Assembly: GCF_019029495.1 (NCBI RefSeq)
Contig: NZ_JAERQM010000007.1
Location: 124,001 to 188,000, forward strand
Direction: 5' to 3'
DNA length: 64,000 nucleotides
From: Falsiroseomonas oleicola
GTDB lineage: Bacteria; Pseudomonadota; Alphaproteobacteria; Acetobacterales; Acetobacteraceae
The translations under genes were made by a program, and so were the position numbers. The notes beneath the pieces were generated by a model. The model ran no database searches and was not told where the DNA came from. It worked only from the letters and a program-made list of their open reading frames with translations. Shown piece by piece: positions 50,480 through 64,000 of the stretch (its first letter is position 1; each line of letters starts with the position of its first letter).

Positions 50480-50597
50480 TGCTGGCGTCCTTGTCTAGCG
50501 GCATGCCATCCGGGATGGCCCAATGCGGTATCTGGGGCGCCAGCCTCACAGCCGCTTCGCGGCCAGTCTACGATTTCGTAAGGTTGAGGAGGCCCGC

Positions 50598-51269
50598 TTG
50601 CGCATCCTGCTGGTCGAGGACGATGCCGGCACGGCGGCGGAGGTGGCGCGCGGCCTGAGCGGGGCCGGGCATCTGGTGAACCATGTGGCGGACGGCAAGG
50701 CCGGGCTGATGGAGGCGATCGGCGGCGGCTATGACGTGCTGGTGGTGGACCGGATGCTCCCCGGCCTGGATGGCCTCGGCCTGATCCGCGCCCTGCGCGC
50801 CGCCGGGGTGGCGACGCCGGCCTTGATGCTGACCGCCCGCGCCGGACTCGGCGACCGGGTGGAGGGGCTGGATTCCGGCGCCGACGACTACCTGGCCAAG
50901 CCCTTCGCCTTTTCCGAGCTGCTGGCGCGGGTGCATGCGCTGGGCCGCCGCCCCGCCCTGCATGCCGAGCCCAGCGTCTTGCGCCTGGCCGACCTGGAGA
51001 TGGACCTGCTGCGCCGCAGCGTCACCCGCGCCGGCCAGCGCATCGACCTGCAGCCCCGCGAATTCCGCCTGCTGGAGGTGCTGCTGCGCCAGGCCGGGCG
51101 GGTGGTGACGCGCAACATGCTGCTGGAACAGGTCTGGGAAATCCATTTCGACCCGCGCACCAGCGTGGTGGAGACGCATATCAGCCGGCTGCGCGCCAAG
51201 CTGGGCGAACCCAGCCTGATCCACACCCTGCGCGGTTCCGGCTATGTGGCGCGAGCGCCCGATGCGTGA
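50598..51269 (+). CDS. OmpR-family response regulator
   Basis: 223 residues. Receiver domain: acidic pocket LLVEDDAG, phosphoacceptor Asp in VLVVDRMLPGLDG, Thr/Ser in LMLTARAG and Lys in DDYLAKPFAF. The winged-helix DNA-binding domain ends VETHISRLRAKLGEPSLIHTLRGSGYVA. The TTG at 50598 is used because GAGGAGG lies 5 bases before it and it begins exactly at LRILLVEDD; there is no ATG at this spot. The stop codon overlaps the kinase start. Confidence 0.93.
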   Translation: MRILLVEDDAGTAAEVARGLSGAGHLVNHVADGKAGLMEAIGGGYDVLVVDRMLPGLDGLGLIRALRAAGVATPALMLTARAGLGDRVEGLDSGADDYLAKPFAFSELLARVHALGRRPALHAEPSVLRLADLEMDLLRRSVTRAGQRIDLQPREFRLLEVLLRQAGRVVTRNMLLEQVWEIHFDPRTSVVETHISRLRAKLGEPSLIHTLRGSGYVARAPDA

Positions 51270-52596
51270 AGAGGCGCCGGCGCGCTGGTGGGCCACCACC
51301 GGCTTCCGCATCACGCTGCTGCATCTGGCGCTGACCCTGGCGGGCACGGCGCTGCTGGCCGGCATCGGCTTCTTCACCGCCTCCCGCTTCGCGACGCAGC
51401 AGATCCAGGCGGAGATCGAGCGCGATGTCGGCGTGCTGCTGAATGCCGGGCGGCTCGGCGGCGTGACCTCCCTCGCTTTGTCGATCGAGGCGCGGATCGC
51501 CGCGGATCGCAGCGGCACGCAGTATTTCCTGCTGACAGGGCCGGGGGCCGGGCGCATCGCCGGCAACCTGGCGGAGGCGCCGCTGCGGCCCGGCTGGGCG
51601 AGCATGGCGCTGGATGCCGCGCAGGCCGAAAGCGCGCTGCTCGCCTATGGCACGCCGCTGCCGGCCGGGCATTTCCTGCTGGTCGGCCGCGACCTCGGCC
51701 CGGTGCAGGCGCTGGAGGCGCAGTTGCTGGCCAGCGCCGGCTGGGTCGGCGGCGCGGCGCTGCTGCTGGCGCTGGGTGGTGGGCTGGTGGTGGGGCGCAG
51801 CGTGGTGCGCCGCGCTGCCCAGATGGAGCGCGCCCTGGCGGAGGTGGAGGCCGGGCGGCTGGACACCCGCCTTCTCACCCGCCCCGGCGGCGACGAATTC
51901 GACCGGCTGGCGCGGCGGGTGAATGCGACGCTGGACCGCCTGCAGGGCACCATGGCGGCGCTGCGCCAGGTGACGGACGACATCGCCCACGACCTGCGCA
52001 CCCCCCTGACCCGGCTGCGCGGCCGGCTGGAATCCCTGGCCGAGGCGACGCCGGAGGCCGAGGCTGCGGTGGCGGAATGCGACCGCATCCTGGAGGTCTT
52101 CGCCGCGCTGCTGCGCATCGCCCAGGTCGAAAGCGGCGCCCGCCGTGCCGCCTTCGCCGAGGTGAACCTGACCCAGGTGATGGAGACGGTGGCGGAGCTC
52201 TATGGCAGCGCGGCCGCCGAGCGAGGCCAGACGCTCGCCACCGACCTCGCCCCTGGCGTGACCTTCCGGGGGGACCGGGATCTGCTGACGCAGATGCTGG
52301 CCAATCTGGTGGAGAACGCCATCCGCCATGGGCGGGAGGGTGGCCTTGTGTCGCTTGCGCTGCGGCCGGGGCCGGAGATCACCGTGGCGGATGACGGGCC
52401 GGGCATTCCGGCGGCCGACAAGCCCCTGGTCTTCCGCCGCTTCCACCGGCTGGACCAGGCGCGTGCCACGCCGGGGGCCGGGCTGGGCCTGGCGCTGGTG
52501 GCGGCAGTGGCGGAACTGCATGGGCTGACGGTGACGCTGGAGGATGCGGGGGGTGGCCCGATGCCGGGGCTGCGCGTGCGGCTAAACGCGGGCTGA
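51262..52596 (+). CDS. Sensor histidine kinase
   Basis: 444 residues: two transmembrane helices (about 25-45 and 160-180), a HAMP domain (VVRRAAQMERALAEVEAGRLDTRL), H-box DDIAHDLRTPLTRLRG with the phosphoacceptor His, and the ATP-binding domain with N-box NLVENAIRHG, G1 ADDGPGIP and G2 GAGLGLALVAA. It pairs with the OmpR regulator just upstream, whose stop codon it overlaps by 8 bases. The periplasmic sensor of about 100 residues has no recognisable fold. Its 3' end overlaps that of the convergent LysR gene by 15 bases. Confidence 0.93.
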   Translation: MREEAPARWWATTGFRITLLHLALTLAGTALLAGIGFFTASRFATQQIQAEIERDVGVLLNAGRLGGVTSLALSIEARIAADRSGTQYFLLTGPGAGRIAGNLAEAPLRPGWASMALDAAQAESALLAYGTPLPAGHFLLVGRDLGPVQALEAQLLASAGWVGGAALLLALGGGLVVGRSVVRRAAQMERALAEVEAGRLDTRLLTRPGGDEFDRLARRVNATLDRLQGTMAALRQVTDDIAHDLRTPLTRLRGRLESLAEATPEAEAAVAECDRILEVFAALLRIAQVESGARRAAFAEVNLTQVMETVAELYGSAAAERGQTLATDLAPGVTFRGDRDLLTQMLANLVENAIRHGREGGLVSLALRPGPEITVADDGPGIPAADKPLVFRRFHRLDQARATPGAGLGLALVAAVAELHGLTVTLEDAGGGPMPGLRVRLNAG

Positions 52597-53484
52597 CTCT
52601 CCCATCGCGGCGTTCAGCCATTCGCAAAACGCCTGCACGGTGGAGCGGCGGGCGGCCATTTCGGTCATCACCAGGTGGTAGCCGGTGCCGTCATCCAGCG
52701 CCTGCGGGAAGGGCCGCACCAGCCGCCCCGAAGCCAGCGCATCCGCCACCAGCACGCGCCAGCCCACCGCGATGCCCTGGCGGGCCTCGGCCGCGGCCAG
52801 GGTCAGGGCGGTTTCGTCGAAGCGGGGGCCGGCCGTCGCCAAGGCCGGGTCCAGACCGGCGGCGATCGCCCAGTCCCGCCAATGCGGCCGTTCCGCGTAA
52901 TGCAGCAGGGTGGCGCGGGCCAAAACCTCCGACGGGGGCAGGCCCTCGGGCAGGTAGCCCGGGGCGCAGACCGGAAACAGCACCTCCTTCGTCAGCGGCT
53001 GCACCACATGGCCGGGCCAATCGCCATCGCCCGCGCGGATCGCCACATCCACATCGGCGCCGTGCAACTGCGCGAAATAGCGATGCGTCTCCAGCCGCAG
53101 GGCGATCCAGGGATGGGCGCGGGCGAAATCGGCGATGCGCGGGGCCAGCACCCGCATGGCGAAGGTGCGCGCGGCATTCACCACCAGGGTGGTGCGGCTG
53201 CGCGGCTGGCCGATGCGGAACAGCCCGGCCTCCAACTGCTCCAGCCCCCGCCGCACGTAATCCGCCAGCAGGTCCCCGGCCTCGGTGAGTTTCAACCCGC
53301 GCGGGCCGCGCTTGAACAGGGTTTCGGCCAATTGGCCCTCCAGCGACTTGATCTGCCGGCTGATGGCGCCCTGGGTCACGCCCAGCTCCTCCGCCGCACG
53401 GGCCATGTTGAGGTGGCGTGCGGCGGCATCGAAGGCGCGCAGCGCCTGGAGGGGGAGGGCGGATACGCCTTGAGGCAGGCTCAT
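52582..53484 (-). CDS. LysR family transcriptional regulator (GcvA-like)
   Basis: 300 residues. Helix-turn-helix NMARAAEELGVTQGAISRQIKSLEGQL, the first residues LPLQALRAFDAAARHLN being the GcvA-like start. The C-terminal effector domain includes IALRLETHRYFAQLHGADVDVAIRAG. It diverges from the five-gene hydantoinase operon over 83 bases, so it most likely controls that operon. The inducer is unknown. Confidence 0.9.
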   Translation of the reverse strand: MSLPQGVSALPLQALRAFDAAARHLNMARAAEELGVTQGAISRQIKSLEGQLAETLFKRGPRGLKLTEAGDLLADYVRRGLEQLEAGLFRIGQPRSRTTLVVNAARTFAMRVLAPRIADFARAHPWIALRLETHRYFAQLHGADVDVAIRAGDGDWPGHVVQPLTKEVLFPVCAPGYLPEGLPPSEVLARATLLHYAERPHWRDWAIAAGLDPALATAGPRFDETALTLAAAEARQGIAVGWRVLVADALASGRLVRPFPQALDDGTGYHLVMTEMAARRSTVQAFCEWLNAAMGESARV

Positions 53485-53567
53485 GGCGGAACACCTTAAA
53501 CACGCGCTACCGGCAGGGCCAGGGTGGGGGCACCCTGCGGCGAACCCTCCGGGAGTCCTCCGCCCCC

Positions 53568-55211
53568 ATGTCCGCCCGCTTCGATCCCGTCACGCTGCAG
53601 ATCCTCTGGAGCCGGCTGATCTCGATCGCCGATGAGGCGGCGGCGGCGCTGCTGCGCACCTCCTTCTCCACCATCGTTCGCGAATCCAACGATTTCGCCA
53701 CCGTGCTGATGGATGCGGAGGGCAACAGCCTGGCGGAGAACTCCATCGGCATCCCGAGTTTTGTCGGCCTGCTGCCGCGCACGCTCAAGCACATGCTGGC
53801 CGAATATCCGCTGGAGGAGCTGCGGCCGGGGGACGTGCTGATGACCAATGATCCCTGGATGGGGACCGGGCATCTGCTGGACATCACCACGGCCATGCCG
53901 GTGTTTCATCAAGGCAAGCTGGTGGCTTTTGCGGGCGCGACCTCGCACATGCCGGATATCGGCGGCACGCTGTGGTCGGCCGATTGCACGGAGGTCTTCG
54001 AGGAAGGCCTTCGTATCCCGCCGACGAAATTCCTGGTCGAGGGCCAGGAGAACCGGGAGGTGGTGCGCTTCATCCGCGGCAATGTGCGCGTGCCCGACCA
54101 GGTGATGGGCGACATCCAGGCGCAGATCACGGCCATCACCGTCTGCGCCCGGCGGGTGGTGGAATTCCTCGGGGATACCGGCCTCGCCGATCTGACGGCG
54201 CTGTCCGCCACCCTGCAGGCGCGTGCCGATGCGGCGATGCGCCAGGCGATCGCGGCGCTGCCGGACGGCACCTGGCACGGCACTGTCTTCGCCGATGGCT
54301 ATGAGGAGGCGGAGACGCGCATCCAATGCGCGGTGACCATCGCCGGCGACAGCCTCAGCGTGGACTATGCCGGCACCTCCCCGCAGATCGCGCGCGGGCT
54401 GAACAGCGTGATGAACTACACCTACGCCTATACCGTCTATCCGCTGAAATGCGCGCTGGACCCGATGACGCCGCGCAATGAGGGCAGCTACCGCGCCATC
54501 GGCGTGACGGCGCCGGAAGGCAGCATCCTGAACCCGCGCTGGCCGGCGGCGGTGAATGCGCGGCACCTGACCGGGCTGTTCCTGTCCGGCGCGCTTTACA
54601 AATGCCTGGCGCAGATCGCACCGCAGCTGGTGGTGGCGGACAGCGCCTCCCCGGCGCCGCGTCCCGTCACCACGGGGCTGGATAGGCGGGGAGAGCGGTT
54701 CAGCCAGGTGCTGTTCGGCAGCGGCGGCATGGGCGCGACGCAGGGGCGCGACGGGCTGAACACCACGGCCTTCCCGACCAATAGCGGCTCCGGCTCCATC
54801 GAGGCCTTCGAGGCCTCCGCCCCCATCCTGGTCTGGCGCAAGGACCTGCTGCCGGACAGCGGCGGTCCCGGCCAGTTCCGCGGCGGGCTGGGCCAGGAGA
54901 TCGAGCTGGAGGTGATGACCGACCAGCCGGTGCGGCTTTCCATGGTCTCCGACCGTATGAAGCATCCGGCCGGCGGGCTGGATGGCGGCGGGGCGGGGGC
55001 GCCGGCGCTGGTGCAGCTGCAGGATGGCCGCAAGCCGCATCCGAAATCGCGCAGCATGCTGGCGCCGGGGGATCGGCTGACCCTGCATCTGGGCGGTGGC
55101 GGCGGCTATGGCGACCCGGCGGCGCGGGACCCGATGGCGCTGCAGCGGGACATCGCGGATGGTTACGTCACGCCCGAGGGGGCGCAACGCGACTACCGGA
55201 GGAAACAATGA
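53568..55211 (+). CDS. Hydantoinase B/oxoprolinase family protein
   Basis: 547 residues of the HyuB/oxoprolinase C-half family. Signature blocks: SFSTIVRESNDFATVLMDAEGN, GDVLMTNDPWMGTGHLLDIT (metal-binding), MPDIGGTLW and PTNSGSGSIEAFE. Members form heteromers with a HyuA-type ATP-dependent subunit to open cyclic amides (hydantoins, 5-oxoproline) or to activate ketones (acetone carboxylase-like). Substrate is unresolved. The ATG at 53568 fits the family start. First gene of the operon; overlaps the Bug gene by 4 bases. Confidence 0.9.
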   Translation: MSARFDPVTLQILWSRLISIADEAAAALLRTSFSTIVRESNDFATVLMDAEGNSLAENSIGIPSFVGLLPRTLKHMLAEYPLEELRPGDVLMTNDPWMGTGHLLDITTAMPVFHQGKLVAFAGATSHMPDIGGTLWSADCTEVFEEGLRIPPTKFLVEGQENREVVRFIRGNVRVPDQVMGDIQAQITAITVCARRVVEFLGDTGLADLTALSATLQARADAAMRQAIAALPDGTWHGTVFADGYEEAETRIQCAVTIAGDSLSVDYAGTSPQIARGLNSVMNYTYAYTVYPLKCALDPMTPRNEGSYRAIGVTAPEGSILNPRWPAAVNARHLTGLFLSGALYKCLAQIAPQLVVADSASPAPRPVTTGLDRRGERFSQVLFGSGGMGATQGRDGLNTTAFPTNSGSGSIEAFEASAPILVWRKDLLPDSGGPGQFRGGLGQEIELEVMTDQPVRLSMVSDRMKHPAGGLDGGGAGAPALVQLQDGRKPHPKSRSMLAPGDRLTLHLGGGGGYGDPAARDPMALQRDIADGYVTPEGAQRDYRRKQ

Positions 55212-56188
55212 CCCATAAGATCACCCGCCGCGCATTGGCGGCGGCGATGGCGGCTGTCCCATTCGCGGCGGGCGCCCAGGCGCCCTGGCCGACCCGGCCG
55301 TTGCGCATGATCGTGCCCTTCGCGCCAGGGGGCGGTTCCGACACGCTGGGCCGGCTGCTGGCGACGCCGCTGGGCGCGGAGCTGGGCCAGCCGGTGGTGG
55401 TGGAGAACCGCGCCGGCGCCGGCAGCCAGATCGGCGCGGAGGCGGTGATGCGCAGCCCGCCGGATGGGCTGACCCTGCTGCTGGGCGACACGCCGCTGGC
55501 GACGATCCCGGCGGTGCAGGCGGCGACCGGCCAGCCGGTGGCCTTCGACACCGGGCGCGATTTCACCGCCATTGCCACGCTGGGCGTCGCCCCGGCGCTG
55601 CTGGTGGTCGCCAGCAGCTCCCCCTTTCGCACGACGCGCGATCTGCTGGAAGCGGCGCGGGCGCGGCCGGAGGCGGTGAACGTGGCTTCCGGCGGCACCG
55701 CCACCAGCACGCATCTGATGATCGAGCTGTTGCAGATGCGCAGCGGCGTGAAGGTGACGCATGTGCCCTATCGCGGCACCGGCGCGGCGCTGCCGGATGT
55801 GCTGAACGGCACGGTGCAGGCGATGATCCAGGCGATGGCCACGGCCGCGCCGCTGGTGGCCTCCGGGCAGATGCGGGTGATTGGCGTGGCGGCGGAACAG
55901 CGCCTGCCGGCGATGCCGGATGTGCCGACGCTGCGCGAACAGGGCGTGGACCTGGTGGCCGGCTTCTGGTGGGGCGTGCTCGGCCCGGCCGGCATCCCGG
56001 CCCCGATCGTGGCGCGGCTGCGGGAGGCGATCGACAAGTCGATGGCGACGGAAGCGGTGCAGGCACGGCTGCCGGCGCTGGGGCTGGAACGCCTGCAGCT
56101 CGGCCCGGACGCGTTTCGGACGATGCTGGTGAGCGAGACGGCGCGCTGGCGCGAGGTGGTGACGACGGCGGGGATCAAGCCTGAATGA
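55208..56188 (+). CDS. Bug family (TTT) periplasmic substrate-binding protein
   Basis: 326 residues. Signal peptide MTHKITRRALAAAMAAVPFAAGA; mature part begins PTRPLRMIVPFAPGGGSDTLGRLL, the Bug start, with GGAxGGxDxxAR-type GGGSDTLGR. It has VKVTHVPYRGTGAALPDVLNG and KVMPDVPTL-type MPDVPTLREQG. Ligands are carboxylates or amides. No TctA/TctB permease genes accompany it, so it is an orphan receptor. Its place between hyuB and hyuA suggests that it senses or binds the pathway's substrate. Confidence 0.9.
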   Translation: MTHKITRRALAAAMAAVPFAAGAQAPWPTRPLRMIVPFAPGGGSDTLGRLLATPLGAELGQPVVVENRAGAGSQIGAEAVMRSPPDGLTLLLGDTPLATIPAVQAATGQPVAFDTGRDFTAIATLGVAPALLVVASSSPFRTTRDLLEAARARPEAVNVASGGTATSTHLMIELLQMRSGVKVTHVPYRGTGAALPDVLNGTVQAMIQAMATAAPLVASGQMRVIGVAAEQRLPAMPDVPTLREQGVDLVAGFWWGVLGPAGIPAPIVARLREAIDKSMATEAVQARLPALGLERLQLGPDAFRTMLVSETARWREVVTTAGIKPE

Positions 56189-56269
56189 GCGTGAGCTGCG
56201 GGATGTGCGACGTGCAGCCGGTGCGCTTCGCACCGGCTGGGCGGCAGGCGGGCGCATGAGGGAAGTGGA

Positions 56270-58366
56270 ATGACGGATGCTGCGCGCCCTTACCGCATCG
56301 GGGTCGATGTTGGAGGCACCTTCACCGATTTCGTGCTGGTGGATGATGCCACCGGCCGCGTGCTGACCGGCAAGCGGCTGACCACGCCGGACGATCCCGG
56401 CCGCGCCATCCTGGAAGGCATCACCCGCATTCTATCCGAAGCGGGCGCTTCCATCGGTGATGTGCGCCAGGTGGTGCATGGCACGACGCTGGTGACCAAT
56501 ACGGTCATCGAGCGCAAGGGCGCGCGCATCGGCCTGGTCACCACGCGCGGCTTCCGCGACAGCCTCGAGATGGGGCGGGAGATGCGCTACGATCTCTACG
56601 ACCTGTTCCTCGACAAGCCGGAGCCACTGGTGCCGCGCCCGCGCCGCCATGCGGTGACGCAGCGCCACGATGCGCAGGGACGGGAACTGGTGGCGCTGGT
56701 GGAATCGGAGGTGCGCGACGCCGCGCGCGCCCTGCGCGCCGATGGGGTGGAGGCGGTGGCGGTGTGCCTGCTGCACAGCTATCGCGACCCGTCGCATGAA
56801 CGGCGCGTCGGCGCGATCCTGGCGGAGGAAATGCCGGGCGTGCCCGTCACGCTTTCCTCTGATGTGGCGCCGGAGATTCGCGAATACGAGCGCGCGAATA
56901 CCGCCTGTGTGAACGCCTATGTGCTGCCGCTGATGGACCGCTATCTGGCGAGCCTGGAGGCGGAGCTGCGGCAGCGTGGGCTTGGCGGGCCGCTGCATCT
57001 GATGCTCTCGGCGGGCGGCATCGCCTCCGTGGGTTACGCGCGCGCCAACCCCGTGCAGCTGATCGAAAGCGGCCCTGCTGCCGGCGCCACCGCCGCCATG
57101 CATTACGGCCGCATCGCCGGCGTCGCCGACATGATCTCCTTCGACATGGGCGGCACAACCGCCAAGATGTGCCTGATCGAGAAGGGGGAGGCGGAGCATG
57201 CCTCGACCTTCGAGGCGGCGCGGGTGCGGCGTTTCCGTAAGGGGTCCGGGCTGCCGCTGAAGGTGCCGGTGATCGACCTGATCGAGATCGGCGCTGGCGG
57301 CGGCTCCATCGCCCATGTGAATGCGATGGGGTTGCTGAATGTGGGGCCGGAGAGCGCGGGCTCCGTGCCCGGTCCGGTCTGCTACAGGCGCGGCGGCACG
57401 CAGCCGACGGTGACGGATGCGGACCTGCTGCTGGGCTATCTCTCGCCCGAGTATTTTCTCGGCGGCGAAATGGCGCTGGACCGCGCGGCGGTGGAAGGCG
57501 CGATGCAGGCGCATCTCGGCCGGAAGCTCGGCATGACGGCGCTGGAAGTGGCGGCGGGCATCCACAGCATCGTCAACGAGAACATGGCCGCCGCCACGCG
57601 GATGTATGTGGCGGAGAAGGGGCGCGATCCGCGCCGCTACGCCATGCTCGCCTTCGGCGGCGCCGGTCCCGTGCATGCCTATGGATTGGCGAAACTGCTG
57701 AAACTGTCACGGGTGATCGTGCCGCAGGGCGCGGGTGTCGCCTCCGCATTGGGCTTCCTCGTTGCCGCGCCGGCGATCGACCTGGTGCGGTCCGGTGTGC
57801 AGCGGCTGACGGCCGTGGATTGGGACGGCGTGGCCCAAAAGTTTGTGGAGATGGAAGCGGAGGCGCGCGCGATGCTGCTGGATGCCGGCGCCGCGCCCGG
57901 CGACGTGCAGTTCCGCCGCAGCGTCGACATGCGCTATGCTGGCCAGGGCTTCGACATCAGCGTGCCGATCCCCGAGGCGGCGGATGCCGCGACCGTGGAA
58001 GCCGCCTTCCGCGACACCTACTTTGGGCTGTTCGACCGCCGCATCACCGGTGTGGCGATGGAAGTGCTCTCCTGGCGCCTGCACGCCACCGCCAGCCGCC
58101 CCAAGGTGCCGGAGAGCTTCACGTCACCGCCGGGCGAGGGTGCCGCGCTGAAGGGCCATCGCGACGTGTGGTTCGCGGAGACGGGCCTCGCCCCCTGCGC
58201 CGTCTATGACCGCTACCGCCTGCCCGTGGGCCAGCGCATCGCCGGCCCTGCCGTGGTGGAGGAACGCGAATCCACCGTCGTGCTCGGCCCCGACGCGCAT
58301 GTGACCCGCGACATCCACGGCAATCTGCTGATCGACATCACCTATCCGGAGGATACAACCCCATGA
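56270..58366 (+). CDS. Hydantoinase/oxoprolinase family protein, A subunit
   Basis: 698 residues of the HyuA family with an acetate-kinase-type ATPase fold. It begins RIGVDVGGTFTDFVLVDDATG, followed by VVHGTTLVTNTVIERKGARI and ISFDMGGTTAKMCLIEKG, the second phosphate loop. LAFGGAGPVHAYGLAK and GAGVASALGFLVA are late landmarks. Partner of the B subunit encoded upstream. It is separated from the Bug gene by 81 bases and overlaps the aminotransferase gene by 4. Confidence 0.92.
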   Translation: MTDAARPYRIGVDVGGTFTDFVLVDDATGRVLTGKRLTTPDDPGRAILEGITRILSEAGASIGDVRQVVHGTTLVTNTVIERKGARIGLVTTRGFRDSLEMGREMRYDLYDLFLDKPEPLVPRPRRHAVTQRHDAQGRELVALVESEVRDAARALRADGVEAVAVCLLHSYRDPSHERRVGAILAEEMPGVPVTLSSDVAPEIREYERANTACVNAYVLPLMDRYLASLEAELRQRGLGGPLHLMLSAGGIASVGYARANPVQLIESGPAAGATAAMHYGRIAGVADMISFDMGGTTAKMCLIEKGEAEHASTFEAARVRRFRKGSGLPLKVPVIDLIEIGAGGGSIAHVNAMGLLNVGPESAGSVPGPVCYRRGGTQPTVTDADLLLGYLSPEYFLGGEMALDRAAVEGAMQAHLGRKLGMTALEVAAGIHSIVNENMAAATRMYVAEKGRDPRRYAMLAFGGAGPVHAYGLAKLLKLSRVIVPQGAGVASALGFLVAAPAIDLVRSGVQRLTAVDWDGVAQKFVEMEAEARAMLLDAGAAPGDVQFRRSVDMRYAGQGFDISVPIPEAADAATVEAAFRDTYFGLFDRRITGVAMEVLSWRLHATASRPKVPESFTSPPGEGAALKGHRDVWFAETGLAPCAVYDRYRLPVGQRIAGPAVVEERESTVVLGPDAHVTRDIHGNLLIDITYPEDTTP

Positions 58367-59319
58367 GCAAGACGGCGGATTACGCCTGGCTCGACGGCAA
58401 GCTGGTGCCCTGGGCCAATGCCACCATGCACATCTCCACCGAATGCGTGCTGCGCGGGGAGAATGTGTTCGAGGGCATCCGTGCCTATTGGAACGAGGAG
58501 CAGCAGGAGCTTTTCACCTTCCGTCACGCCGACCACATCGCCCGGCTGCGCCAGGGCGCGCGAATCATGCGCATGACGATTCCGTATTCCGATGCGGAGA
58601 TCGAGGCGGCGAGCCTGGAACTCATCCGCGCCTGCAACTACCGGGAGACGATCCACTACCGCCCCGTGGTCTACTTCGCCGAGGGCGAGCTGACGCATTA
58701 CCTGCCCAGCGAAATCCGCACCGGCTTCTTCATCCTCGCCTTCTCCATGCCGTCCAAGAAGGTGCAGGAGACCGGCGTGAAAAGCGCCATCAGCACCTGG
58801 CGCCGCAACAGCGACCTGGCCTCCCCGTCGCGCATCAAGTCCGGCGCGAACTACCACAACTCGCGCCTCGCCTATATCGAGGCGCGGATGAACGGCATGG
58901 GCCCGCCGGTGATGCTGAACGCCGCCGGCAAGGTGGCGGAAGGCCCCGGCGCCTGCGTGATGATCGTCCGGCACGGCAAGCTCATCACGCCGCCTGTGAC
59001 CGCCGACATCCTCGAATCCATCACGCGCGAGACTCTGATGGAGCTGGCGCGGGAGGAGCTTGGCATGGAGGTTGTGGAGCGCGATGTCGACCGCTCCGAG
59101 CTCTACGTCGCCGACGAGGCTTTCTTCTGCGGCAGCGGCGCGGAGGTGCTGCCGATGGTCTCGATCGACCACTACGACATCGGCGACGGCACGCCGGGCG
59201 AGGTCACCCGCAGACTGCAGACGCTCTACAACGATGCGGTGCGCGGTCGCCTCGAAAAATACCGGCACTGGCTGACGCCGGTCTGGCGCGGCAATGCGAC
59301 GAAGGCGGCCGCGGAATGA
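58363..59319 (+). CDS. Class IV PLP aminotransferase, branched-chain type
   Basis: 318 residues of the fold-type IV aminotransferases. The cofactor Lys159 is in SPSRIKSGANYHNSRLAYIEA; the start ADYAWLDGKLVPWANATMHI and GENVFEGIRAYWNEEQQEL are typical of IlvE-like enzymes; GKVAEGPGACVMIVRHGKL and CGSGAEVLPM bind cofactor phosphate. Its place inside the hydantoinase operon suggests that it works on an amino acid released by that system rather than general branched-chain synthesis. Confidence 0.9.
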   Translation: MSKTADYAWLDGKLVPWANATMHISTECVLRGENVFEGIRAYWNEEQQELFTFRHADHIARLRQGARIMRMTIPYSDAEIEAASLELIRACNYRETIHYRPVVYFAEGELTHYLPSEIRTGFFILAFSMPSKKVQETGVKSAISTWRRNSDLASPSRIKSGANYHNSRLAYIEARMNGMGPPVMLNAAGKVAEGPGACVMIVRHGKLITPPVTADILESITRETLMELAREELGMEVVERDVDRSELYVADEAFFCGSGAEVLPMVSIDHYDIGDGTPGEVTRRLQTLYNDAVRGRLEKYRHWLTPVWRGNATKAAAE

Positions 59320-60980
59320 CGCGCAGCGTTGGAAGGCTGGTCGCCGAAAGCCTCGCCGCGCATGGCGTGGATTTGTTGTTCTGCGTGCCGGGCGAGAGTT
59401 TTCTCGGGCTGACGGATGCGCTGGTGGATGTGCCGGCGCTGAAACTCGTCGTCTGCCGGCATGAAGGCGGCGCGGCCTATATGGCCGCCGCCGATGGCCG
59501 CATGCGCGCCGGGCGCGCGGGCGTCTGCATGGTCTCGCGCGGCCCGGGCGTCTCCAACGCCATGATCGGCCTGCACACGGCCTTTCACGACGCCATCCCT
59601 ATGGTGCTTTTGATCGGCCAGGTGGAACGCCGCGACCGTGGCCGCGGCGCTCTTCAGGAGCAGAATTACGAAAAGTACCTGGCGGATACGGTGAAGGCCG
59701 TGATCCCGGTGGACATGGCATCGCAGGCCAGCGAGGCCATCGCCCGTGCCTTCCACCTCGCCGAATCCGGCACGCCCGGCCCTGTGGCGGTGGTGCTGCC
59801 GGAGGATGTGCTGGACGACGACGCCAGCGAAATCCCACTCGCAAAACCCCGCATCCGCGCCACCCCCGGCCCGGCACCCTCACAGGTGGAGGAATTGGCA
59901 AAACGCCTGGCCGCCGCGCAGCGCCCGGTGGTGCTGGTCGGTGGCGCCATGGATGGCCCGCCGGAGGCGCTGGCCGCGCTGAAGCGCCTGGCCGAGGAAT
60001 GGTCGCTGCCCGTCGCGCCGACGCATCGCCGCCCGCATCTGTTCGACAGCCACCACCCCAACTATGCCGGCTATATCGGCAACCGCGTGCAGCCGCCGCT
60101 GATGGCGGCGCTGCGGGAGGCGGACCTGCTGGTGGCGCTGGGCGAGCGGATGACCGATGTGGTCAGCCAGTCCTACACCTGGCCCACGGCGCCCGATCCG
60201 CAGATCCCGCTGGTGCATGTCTGGCCCGATCCCTCGGAGCTCAACCGCGTTTTCCGCGCCGACCTGCCCATGGCCTGTGACCCGGCCTTGCTGGTGGAGG
60301 CGCTGCTCGCCCGCAAGACTCCGCCGACGCCCCCCGGCCGCGCCGCCTGGATCGCCCGGCTGCACGGCTTGCACCGCGACCTGACCGCGCCGCGCCACGA
60401 ACCGGCGCCGGACGGCGTGAATTTCTCCGCCGTCTGCATCGCCGTGGCGGCGCGGATGACGGCGGATGCTGTGCTGACCACGGATGCCGGCAATTTCACG
60501 AGTTTCGTGCACCGCCACATCCCGTTCCGCCCGGGCCAGATGTTCCTGGGCTCCGCCGTCGGCGGCATGGGCGCCGGGATGCCGATGGCGGTCGCGGCCA
60601 GCATCCGGCATCCGGGGCGGCAGGTGATTGCCGTCACGGGCGATGGCGGCGCGCTGATGACCGGCAACGAGATCGCCACGGCCATGCGCCACGGCGCCGC
60701 GCCGGTGCTGCTGATCTCCGACAACCGCACCTATGGCTCGATCGGCATGCACCACGCCAATCGCTATCCGGGCCGCAATTTTTCAAGCGCGGCGGATCTG
60801 GTGAATCCGGACTTCGCTGCCTGGGGCCGGGCCTTCGGGGCGGAGGGATTCACCATCGCCACGGAGGACGACATCGCACCGGTGCTCGACGCCGCCCTGG
60901 CGCCGCGCCGGGTGCCGGCGGTGGTGCATGTGCACGCCTCCGCGCTCCAGGTCACGGCCTGGAAGCGGCTGAAGGGCTAG
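59316..60980 (+). CDS. Thiamine diphosphate-dependent enzyme, acetolactate synthase-like
   Basis: 554 residues. The catalytic Glu is in CRHEGGAAYMAAADGRMRAG, and the ThDP-Mg motif GDGGALMTGNEIATAMRHGA ends near LISDNRTYGSIG. The three domains (PYR, middle, PP) are in order. It resembles the large subunit of acetolactate synthase and related 2-oxoacid decarboxylases. Being last in an operon with an aminotransferase, it may decarboxylate or condense the 2-oxoacid produced there. Overlaps the aminotransferase gene by 4 bases and the convergent HxlR gene by 4. Confidence 0.9.
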   Translation: MTRSVGRLVAESLAAHGVDLLFCVPGESFLGLTDALVDVPALKLVVCRHEGGAAYMAAADGRMRAGRAGVCMVSRGPGVSNAMIGLHTAFHDAIPMVLLIGQVERRDRGRGALQEQNYEKYLADTVKAVIPVDMASQASEAIARAFHLAESGTPGPVAVVLPEDVLDDDASEIPLAKPRIRATPGPAPSQVEELAKRLAAAQRPVVLVGGAMDGPPEALAALKRLAEEWSLPVAPTHRRPHLFDSHHPNYAGYIGNRVQPPLMAALREADLLVALGERMTDVVSQSYTWPTAPDPQIPLVHVWPDPSELNRVFRADLPMACDPALLVEALLARKTPPTPPGRAAWIARLHGLHRDLTAPRHEPAPDGVNFSAVCIAVAARMTADAVLTTDAGNFTSFVHRHIPFRPGQMFLGSAVGGMGAGMPMAVAASIRHPGRQVIAVTGDGGALMTGNEIATAMRHGAAPVLLISDNRTYGSIGMHHANRYPGRNFSSAADLVNPDFAAWGRAFGAEGFTIATEDDIAPVLDAALAPRRVPAVVHVHASALQVTAWKRLKG

Positions 60981-61360
60981 GCGGGCGCAGGCTGGGCGGG
61001 CCGTCGGGCCGCCCAGTCCAGCAGCGCGTCCAGCACGGGGCACAGCGCTTCCCCCCAGGCTGTCAGCGCATAGTCCACCCGTGGCGGCACCTGGGCGTGC
61101 AGGGTGCGGGTGACGAGCCCGTCACGCTCCAGCTCCCGCAGATGCTGGGTCAGCATCTTCTGCGACACGGCGGGAATCGCCCGCTCCAATTCGGAGAAAC
61201 GCAGCACGCCGCCGCCGAAGAGCTGGAACAGGATTTCCATCTTCCAGCGCCCGTCCAGCAGGCGCAGCGCGGCGTCCACCCCGGCGGCGGCCATTTCGGG
61301 GGTCACATCCGCCAGCTTACCCGTGGGTGAGTAGCTGACCTTCCGGTCGGTTCTGGCCAT
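60977..61360 (-). CDS. HxlR family transcriptional regulator
   Basis: 127 residues, winged helix of the HxlR type: [70 protein letters not shown]. HxlR regulators sense electrophiles or oxidants and control neighbouring genes, so the divergent NTF2-like gene is a possible target. The ATG at 61360 is chosen because it starts the domain; the frame is open upstream. Confidence 0.92.
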
Positions 61361-61415
61361 GCGGCAGCCTACCGCGCATCTCCATGGCCAGCCAATCACC
61401 GGATCGGATCGCGTC

Positions 61416-61745
61416 ATGACCCTCACTTTGCCGGCGACACTCGCCAGCTATTTCGCCGCCAAGAACCGCCACGACACGCCGGCCCTGCTGGGCTGCTTCA
61501 GCGCCCAGGCCAGGGTGCGGGACGAGGGCCAGGACATCACCGGCCTGCCTGCCATCCGCGCCTGGATCGAGCAGACCAGCGCCCGCTACGCCGTGCAGGC
61601 CGAGCCCCTGGATTGCCGCGAGGAGGCGGGGCGCCGCATCGTCCGCGCCAATGTCTCCGGCAACTTCCCCGGCAGCCCGGCCGTGCTGACCTTCCGCTTC
61701 GGCCTCGCCGCCGACGGGCGGATCGACGCGCTGGAGATCGGCTGA
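61416..61745 (+). CDS. NTF2-like (SnoaL-type) small protein
   Basis: 109 residues with the NTF2-like cone fold pattern: [45 protein letters not shown] and RIDALEIG. Such proteins are isomerases, hydrolases or ligand carriers; no catalytic residues are decisive. The ATG at 61416 fits. It diverges from the HxlR gene over 55 bases, a frequent pairing. Confidence 0.85.
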
Positions 61746-63076: not shown

Positions 63077-64000
63077 GTGTTCCCCGCAGGCGCGGGGATG
63101 AACCGGTCCACCCGCCGAGGCCCTTGGCCACCAGCGAGTGTTCCCCGCAGGCGCGGGGATGAACCGTCGCGGTTCGGGCCGAACACCCGGGCGCTGAAGT
63201 GTTCCCCGCAGGCGCGGGGATGAACCGGGCCGCACGTCCGATCCGGTCGGCGCGCTGCTGTGTTCCCCGCAGGCGCGGGGATGAACCGGTGCCGGCTCCT
63301 ACGGGTGGCTTTACGACGATGTGTTCCCCGCAGGCGCGGGGATGAACCGAAGTGAACCTGCGTGAAACTGCGAACGTCATCGTGTTCCCCGCAGGCGCGG
63401 GGATGAACCGGAAGCTTGGCCCGTGGGAAACCCTGCCGACGCGTGTTCCCCGCAGGCGCGGGGATGAACCGCCGTCCTGGCCGAGCGGCAGCGCATCGCC
63501 GCCGTGTTCCCCGCAGGCGCGGGGATGAACCGGTGACTATGCCGGGCGGCGCGACAATTCCAGAGTGTTCCCCGCAGGCGCGGGGATGAACCGGGCTGGG
63601 CCGCCAGCGCGCAGGCGTTCCGGGTGTGTTCCCCGCAGGCGCGGGGATGAACCGTAGGTGCCGGACACGAGCGGGAGTAGCGCGAAGTGTTCCCCGCAGG
63701 CGCGGGGATGAACCGGATGACAGACGATGCCGGCTGACCGCACGCCCGTGTTCCCCGCAGGCGCGGGGATGAACCGGTGGTAGGCGTCGGCTTCGTCCAC
63801 CAGCTGGCGTGTTCCCCGCAGGCGCGGGGATGAACCGGCCTACCAGATGCCTGACGGCACGCTGGTGATGTGTTCCCCGCAGGCGCGGGGATGAACCGGC
63901 GGGTCCGCCAGGATGAGGCGGTAGTGGCCTGTGTTCCCCGCAGGCGCGGGGATGAACCGGTCTGGCACGACCCGCATGCCGGGCACGGCTCGTGTTCCCC
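63077..64000 (+). CRISPR. Type I-E CRISPR array, continues beyond window edge
   Basis: Fifteen complete 29-bp repeats start at 63077, 63138, 63199, 63260, 63321, 63382, 63443, 63504, 63565, 63626, 63687, 63748, 63809, 63870 and 63931, plus a 16th cut after 9 bases. Period is exactly 61, so every spacer is 32 bp. The repeat is GTGTTCCCCGCAGGC then GCGGGGATGAACCG, with a stem TCCCCGC/GCGGGGA. All copies are identical by eye. Repeat type and spacer length match I-E (Cascade) systems. Spacers all differ. The reverse-strand translation (FIPAPAGNT, SSPRLRGT) is not a protein. No cas genes are in the window. Confidence 0.98.

Follow-up and report, generated by a model that had tools for sequence, protein, structure and literature searches.

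The window analyzed here, a stretch of 64,000 nucleotides from the alphaproteobacterium Falsiroseomonas oleicola (assembly GCF_019029495.1, contig NZ_JAERQM010000007.1, positions 124,001 to 188,000), belongs to contig 28 of a genome of 5.6 Mb and contains an operon which combines both subunits of a hydantoinase-type enzyme with a periplasmic receptor, an aminotransferase and a thiamine diphosphate (ThDP)-dependent enzyme. The five genes, in the order hyuB, Bug receptor, hyuA, class IV aminotransferase (AT) and ThDP enzyme, are arranged head-to-tail on the plus strand between window positions 53568 and 60980. Overlaps of four bases were found at the junctions hyuB/Bug, hyuA/AT and AT/ThDP, and the sole gap within the operon comprises 81 bases (56189-56269) between the Bug gene and hyuA. 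Pfam bore out every gene assignment; the open reading frames (ORFs) and the Pfam results thus agree with the layout given in a preliminary description of the locus, i.e., five genes with 4-base overlaps, one 81-base gap and divergence from a LysR gene. The features are as follows:

52582-53484, minus strand: LysR-family regulator (PF00126/PF03466), divergent from the operon
53485-53567, no strand: divergent intergenic region of 83 bases between LysR and hyuB, presumed regulatory
53568-55211, plus strand: hyuB, hydantoinase B or metal-site subunit (PF02538, 506 bits), with an ATG at 53568
55208-56188, plus strand: orphan periplasmic receptor of the Bug/TctC type (PF03401, 197 bits)
56189-56269, plus strand: intergenic gap of 81 bases with a perfect G+C-rich hairpin at 56216-56238
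56270-58366, plus strand: hyuA, hydantoinase A or ATP-using subunit of the Lys299 subfamily (PF05378, PF01968, PF19278)
58363-59319, plus strand: class IV aminotransferase with IlvE fold (PF01063, 142.5 bits)
59316-60980, plus strand: ThDP-dependent, acetolactate-synthase-like enzyme (PF02776, PF00205, PF02775)
60977-61426, minus strand: HxlR-type gene, convergent, forming the 3' bound of the operon

To determine how far this gene set is conserved, we searched 395 genomes of the order for relatives of the ThDP enzyme (E<=1e-120) and obtained matches in 105; within the genus eight genomes, including the own one, gave a match and three did not. Twenty neighborhoods of these relatives (numbered here with the prefix L) were fetched, seven with ThDP enzymes of 75-96% identity and 13 with 58-63%. 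All seven close loci have the order hyuA-AT-ThDP, either directly or, in L044 and L046, with one extra Bug gene between, and hyuB is visible in six of them, the seventh being cut at a contig end. Each of the five genes in F. tokyonensis overlaps its neighbor by four bases. An alignment scan of the AT with one genome per species yielded 31 loci. Twelve of them, including the seven just described, carry an AT of 72-97% identity and derive from Falsiroseomonas, to which the closest named relatives belong, Roseomonas, Neoroseomonas and an Acetobacteraceae; three are metagenome-assembled genomes (MAGs). The order hyuA-AT-ThDP is present in all 12 (in L068 the ThDP gene is cut by a contig end) and hyuB is visible in 11 (L061 is cut by a contig end), so that the core hyuB-hyuA-AT-ThDP is kept in 12 of 12 loci as far as the contig ends show. 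Of the 21 possible pairs among the seven close loci, only two have gene clusters in common outside the operon: L041 and L042 share one, L045 and L047 share four. Since the set persists among relatives with AT identities of 72-97% while the flanks mostly differ, it is more than a chance assembly. Within the remaining 19 loci (AT identity 35-61%), hyuA or hyuB was found in the fetched DNA of two, L083 from a Rhodobacteraceae MAG and L081 from a deltaproteobacterial MAG.

The search was extended to the class with 385 genomes (E<=1e-75), 25 of which matched and provided 27 ATs besides that of the window, from 24 other genomes. All 27 were read with flanks of 1.5 kb and 20 of them also with longer flanks, some limited by contig ends. 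At least eight of the 27 ATs have hyuA and/or hyuB within approximately 6 kb (L121, L122, L123, L129, L131, L137, L138, and L139), with L122 contributing only a partial HyuB of 33% identity at a contig end. Random placement of the 283 hyuB genes in those 24 genomes, with hyuB alone counted, leads to 1.2 expected links and a probability of about 8e-6 for eight or more, a value which is too small given the dependence among the genomes (L137 and L139 belong to one family). The excess of AT-hyu links over chance is nevertheless plain. In five of the eight linked loci (L121, L123, L131, L137, and L139) a ThDP gene follows directly after hyuA, and the genes tctC-tctB-tctA precede the AT in L123, L131, and L139 from fetched genomes as well as in L083, where the ThDP-like gene is on the opposite strand and truncated at the contig end. 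Other families of Alphaproteobacteria show other gene orders, namely tctCBA-AT-hyuB-hyuA-ThDP and hyuB-hyuA-ThDP-SDR-AT (SDR, short-chain dehydrogenase/reductase). The latter order is plasmid-borne in Antarctobacter heliothermus and in Shinella sp. WSC3-e, where the set adjoins a divergent aldehyde dehydrogenase gene and genes for an ornithine-cyclodeaminase-family protein, an FAD oxidoreductase and an amino-acid ABC transporter; among the listed genes of the other 11 of 13 plasmid regions opened, the set was not seen. At the level of the phylum (398 genomes, E<=1e-85), six genomes matched besides the own one, and one AT was hyu-linked within 1.5 kb (L160, TctA-AT-HyuB). The preliminary description would have been contradicted by an occurrence in this strain only; the set is conserved well beyond it, both in near relatives and in other alphaproteobacterial families.

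The ThDP enzymes which were compared fall into three groups: that of the present operon, that of Antarctobacter, Shinella and L121 (66-85% mutual identity) and that of L123 and L131 (45%). Identity amounts to 24-28% between the enzyme of this operon and the other groups and to 31-36% between the two others. This replacement of one distantly related ThDP enzyme by another in the same role argues for a real pathway. Further partners belong to the metabolism of amino, oxo and hydroxy acids. In L129 a gene for an Ldh2-type dehydrogenase is located between AT and hyuA (AT-Ldh2-hyuA-hyuB), hyuB is followed by an enzyme which passes the cut-off for 3-oxoadipate:acetyl-CoA acetyltransferase (475 over 350), and a CoA-transferase gene and a thiolase-like gene lie ahead of the set; the layout of L138 matches that of L129 by size and position only. 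L121 additionally has a D-2-hydroxyacid dehydrogenase. A sister operon in the own genome (L168, 5811-13877) consists of a LysR-like gene, hyuB (62%), hyuA (56%), two Bug genes and a class I/II aminotransferase. Plasmids of Variovorax and Cupriavidus (L181, L182, and L183) carry Lys-type hyuBA followed by a gene annotated as phosphoglycerate dehydrogenase, with AtuA in two of these regions and DUF4387 in all three. Two further Lys-type hyu loci of the own genome (L170 and L171) do not fit this pattern, one with an ABC importer and Bug genes and the other with a peptidase and an amidohydrolase, and several plasmid Lys-type hyu loci stand with other importers.

Comparison of the active sites was carried out with the subunits CapA and CapB of caprolactamase and with other solved enzymes. 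In HyuB, the residues D42-H102-D105-H127 align with D41-H99-D102-H124 of CapB, which are described as its metal ligands (Asp41, His99, Asp102, His124) in the excerpts of PMC8453981. This Asp-His-Asp-His site is kept in all 22 AT-linked HyuB loci read and likewise in the eight own-genome HyuB loci read (the window's included; the genome has 16 hyuB), and since paralogs share these ligands, this set is not distinguished by them. The first nucleotide-site Asp of HyuA is conserved (Asp13, corresponding to CapA Asp11). At the position of CapA Asp302, which is located near the phosphoryl-transfer site and is termed conserved in the excerpts of the same paper, HyuA has Lys299 within the motif GGTTAK. 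Asp occupies this position in the four solved enzymes read: N-methylhydantoinase, CapA, the acetone carboxylase beta subunit and the acetophenone carboxylase gamma subunit, the comparison for acetophenone carboxylase covering gamma and not alpha. The active-site comparison suggested in the preliminary description thus came out divided, with a metal site which is kept and a Lys299 which replaces Asp302 of CapA. Owing to this replacement HyuA is not assignable to the caprolactamases, the N-methylhydantoinases or the acetone and acetophenone carboxylases.

Lys was found at this position in all 20 AT-linked HyuA examined. The genome encodes 16 HyuA, with Lys in five (the window's included), Asp in ten and Glu in one, so the Lys type is wider than the AT-linked loci. 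(Both hyuB and hyuA gave 16 matches in this genome, and up to 40 hyuB matches were counted in one other genome of the class.) Lys-type HyuA cluster together (100/100 in one tree and 100/99 in another, with ten and four Asp-type rows, respectively, for contrast). Within this group the AT/ThDP sets fall into at least two separate branches, three in the drawn tree, which are interspersed with 12 loci without AT and ThDP. Lys299 may bind an anionic group of the substrate.

The AT scores above the NCBIfam cut-offs of PRK06606 (313.4 over 279) and ilvE_I TIGR01122 (294.3 over 245.6), and its closest solved relative by sequence is 6h65. It carries the motif NVFEGIRAY, and Lys159 is invariant across ten aligned relatives. 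Just before VFEG the enzyme has an Arg (VLRG) where IlvE of Escherichia coli has a Tyr (LHYG), for which reason its substrate range may differ from that of IlvE. As a marker for hyu linkage this Arg was rejected: it is found in ATs for which no hyu link was seen (L073, L093) and is missing from the hyu-linked ATs of L083 and L096; it is a hint about this AT subgroup only. In total the genome has six class IV genes. A second AT (42%) of the own genome is encoded divergently from a ThDP enzyme (L165, 6316-9995) which is 52% identical to that of L083, and the 20 kb read there contain no hyu genes.

The ThDP enzyme of the operon passes the cut-off of PRK08199, 'thiamine pyrophosphate protein' (557.3 over 539), and no other among the best 25 of 54 NCBIfam families. 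Its scores stay below the cut-offs of the acetolactate synthase families among these 25 (TIGR00118, 278.7 of 538 bits; TIGR02418, 248.6 of 551; PRK08322, 257.9 of 509). Glu50 and the GDG motif 442-444, which we take to be functional residues of the enzyme, are invariant in seven operon members, the window's included.

Upstream of the operon, the LysR protein reached 285.6 bits with the GcvA NCBIfam model, slightly below the cut-off of 288. A LysR gene is present at the same place in eight of the 11 close-relative loci showing hyuB, and in these eight the layout is divergent with gaps of approximately 54-92 bases. A simple promoter scan revealed no sigma-70-like site in 53485-53567, and no convincing operator box emerged from the alignment of the LysR/hyuB intergenic regions. 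The scan for promoters and terminators, with no promoter-like site and five terminator-like sites against 2.7 expected, is uninformative for DNA this rich in G+C. LysR would be the regulator of the operon. The hairpin in the gap between Bug and hyuA (56216-56238) is perfect and consists of ten G+C base pairs with a weak folding z of -1.6; F. tokyonensis lacks the gap, its Bug and hyuA genes overlapping by four bases. An interpretation of the 81-base gap as a mobile palindrome was discarded, as it occurs in a single copy in the genome and its folding z is only -1.6.

The receptor has Bug27 (2qpq) and a terephthalate-binding protein as relatives in the PDB. It lies between hyuB and hyuA in seven of the 11 loci and is absent there in four (L063, L068, L069, and L070). 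No TctA or TctB was detected among the eight ORFs scanned in 52582-61745, none of the nine TctA genes of the genome falls within these bounds, and TctB was not sought genome-wide. The preliminary description had regarded the position of the receptor and the missing TctA/TctB as odd. This does not hold, since the genome has at least 150 PF03401 (Bug/TctC receptor) genes vs. nine PF01970 (TctA) genes and receptors without adjacent TctA/TctB are the norm here. With a position which varies among the loci and so many Bugs in the genome, the place of the receptor was likewise rejected as a functional clue. The receptor is a dispensable part outside the conserved core.

Taken together, these observations suggest a LysR-controlled catabolic unit for import, ATP-dependent opening of a cyclic amide, transamination and a ThDP-dependent step on the 2-oxoacid, a reading to which we give about an even chance. 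The periplasmic Bug receptor would capture a small ring compound which contains nitrogen and is probably anionic. HyuA would activate this compound with ATP, and HyuB would hydrolyze the ring amide at the Asp-His-Asp-His metal site to an amino acid, as membership in this enzyme family suggests. The IlvE-like aminotransferase would then remove the amino group, and the resulting 2-oxoacid would either be decarboxylated to an aldehyde by the ThDP enzyme or joined to another aldehyde or oxoacid; decarboxylation seems the more plausible of the two. The main support for these steps is that amino-, oxo- and hydroxy-acid enzymes are common hyu partners. The order which had been proposed earlier, with ring opening, transamination and a 2-oxoacid step, fits many of the partners seen in relatives, i.e., three kinds of ThDP enzyme, L- or D-2-hydroxyacid dehydrogenases, an aldehyde dehydrogenase and importers of the amino-acid ABC or tripartite tricarboxylate transporter (TTT) type. 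The catabolic direction is deduced from the transporters and the aldehyde dehydrogenase which adjoin the set in some relatives.

Several findings weigh against this catabolic reading. Lys299 of HyuA departs from the residue in all four solved enzymes read, so it is family resemblance from which amide hydrolysis has to be argued, and NCBIfam names the AT a branched-chain transaminase. No hyu link was seen for 12 of the 20 class-level ATs with longer flanks and for any of the seven with 1.5-kb flanks only. In all 13 loci read with ThDP enzymes of 58-63% identity this AT and adjoining hyuA/hyuB are lacking, which indicates that the ThDP family of the operon serves other contexts too. Hyu genes are 6-12 kb off in three of these loci (L049, L052, and L059), Bug genes are frequent neighbors, and some neighbors resemble 2-hydroxyacid dehydrogenases and class II aldolases, as read by eye and not by search. 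Finally, the 12 Lys-type hyuA loci interspersed in the tree, four from the own genome and eight from plasmids, are without an AT of this family plus a ThDP enzyme.

Three other explanations were weighed against the catabolic unit. HyuAB might be an ATP-dependent carboxylase, similar to acetone or acetophenone carboxylase, which adds CO2 to a carbonyl compound handled by the ThDP enzyme and the aminotransferase. HyuA and HyuB are homologous to those carboxylases and have metal-site residues in common with them, and the acetyltransferase-like, CoA-transferase and thiolase-like neighbors in L129 provide a keto-acid setting in which carboxylation makes sense. The operon, however, has only two such subunits where the solved carboxylases have more, with more than two described for acetophenone carboxylase in the excerpts of PMC5214803; HyuA ranks CapA (525 bits) before ApcC (328) and ApcA (183), and the four solved enzymes read, among them two carboxylases, all lack Lys299. 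We consider a carboxylase unlikely. Still less probable is a biosynthetic direction, in which the ThDP enzyme condenses its substrates to a 2-oxoacid, the IlvE-like enzyme aminates it and HyuAB modifies the product. This would agree with an AT above the IlvE cut-offs and with the acetolactate-synthase-like character of the ThDP enzyme, but the latter passes no acetolactate synthase cut-off among its best 25 of 54 families, the operon lacks ilvC, ilvD and a regulatory subunit, and uptake systems or an aldehyde dehydrogenase adjoin the set in some relatives. Very improbable, lastly, is a mere sharing of the regulator, with HyuAB and AT-ThDP acting on different substrates of one nutrient mixture: it would account for the AT-ThDP pair without nearby hyu genes and for four more Lys-type hyu loci that have no such AT or ThDP enzyme, all in the own genome, but the same combination has been assembled repeatedly, with distant ThDP subfamilies and in different orders.

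Within the catabolic reading there is a lesser chance that HyuA with Lys299 represent a class of ATP-dependent ring-opening enzymes, so far without biochemical description, which act on carboxylated, amino-acid-like lactams, and that hyuBA-AT-ThDP is a novel catabolic route which arose by repeated assembly, a different ThDP enzyme filling the same role on each occasion. A lactam bearing a carboxylate, of the 5-oxoproline or 6-oxopipecolate type, with an amino acid of the glutamate/2-aminoadipate class as product, is a doubtful candidate for the substrate; this weak guess is derived from Lys299, the AT subgroup with Arg for Tyr and the enzymes for amino acids or dicarboxylates near the relatives. 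To our knowledge, few HyuA/HyuB pairs have a known substrate. Such pairs are abundant. A partner set that is conserved restricts the chemistry to be expected of an entire subfamily, which can then be tested with a Falsiroseomonas strain in culture, and the Lys299 marker offers a means of sorting the HyuA family.

The preliminary description knew of no described pathway with this set, and in the open-access literature searched (titles and starts of abstracts; subscription papers may hold one) no paper describing hyuBA-AT-ThDP turned up either. The gene set is thus real, conserved, undescribed as far as searched and built of known enzyme families.

Two further elements were noticed in the window. 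Next to the LysR gene, at 50523-52596, the translation looks by eye like a response regulator paired with a sensor kinase. A CRISPR-like array, which we take to be of type I-E appearance, is located at 63077-64000 with at least 15 repeats of 29 bases (GTGTTCCCCGCAGGCGCGGGGATGAACCG) in a period of 61 bases and runs past the window end.

Among known systems, caprolactamase CapAB of Pseudomonas jessenii (PDB 6yra) is likewise a two-subunit enzyme of the HyuA/HyuB type with an Asp-His-Asp-His metal site and the nucleotide-site Asp. HyuA and HyuB reach 525 and 246 bits, respectively, of the 1000 bits each which the NCBIfam equivalog models NF050156/NF050157 set as cut-offs, and neither subunit passes the cut-off of any other NCBIfam model; CapA has Asp302 where HyuA has Lys299, and the present operon differs by its class IV aminotransferase and ThDP enzyme. 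Degradation of caprolactam continues, once the ring is open, with a transamination of the product. For Gulosibacter molinativorax, HyuAB have been proposed to open caprolactam before an aminotransferase step, with a GabT-type aminotransferase encoded elsewhere and a subsequent aldehyde dehydrogenase (PMC9477822); the comparison is one of proposed functions, no ThDP enzyme is part of that proposal, and the words thiamine and acetolactate are absent from the excerpts of that paper. N-methylhydantoinase (PDB 7hk5) is the best PDB match of both subunits (HyuA 443 bits, HyuB 231) and differs in being a single chain of 1288 residues with GGTSAD in place of GGTTAK. ATP-dependent lactam opening by HyuA/HyuB relatives is also catalyzed by the 2-oxoindole-3-acetate hydrolase IaaCE and the lactamases OplBA/PrlAB; 2-oxoindole-3-acetate was named in no paper among the matches listed. 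No oxoprolinase model was found among the NCBIfam matches listed, and the only compared chain named 5-oxoprolinase is 6yra, i.e., caprolactamase. The acetone and acetophenone carboxylases (PDB 5m45, 5svb, 5l9w) have ATP and metal subunits homologous to HyuA/HyuB and differ by further subunits and, in the subunits read, by an Asp where HyuA has Lys299, and the scores with the acetophenone carboxylase models remain below the NCBIfam cut-offs (ApcA 183 of 1250, ApcC 328 of 1500, ApcD 123 of 1500 bits). Acetone carboxylase has a third (gamma) subunit encoded with the others, for which no gene is present among the Pfam-identified ORFs of the operon. With the TTT system (TctCBA) the operon shares a receptor of the TctC/Bug family (PF03401, 197 bits), which is optional here and stands without TctA or TctB. 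IlvE, finally, resembles the AT in the NCBIfam cut-offs passed and in the NVFEGIRAY motif, and the AT is set apart from it by Arg for Tyr and by its operon setting next to hyuBA and a ThDP enzyme.

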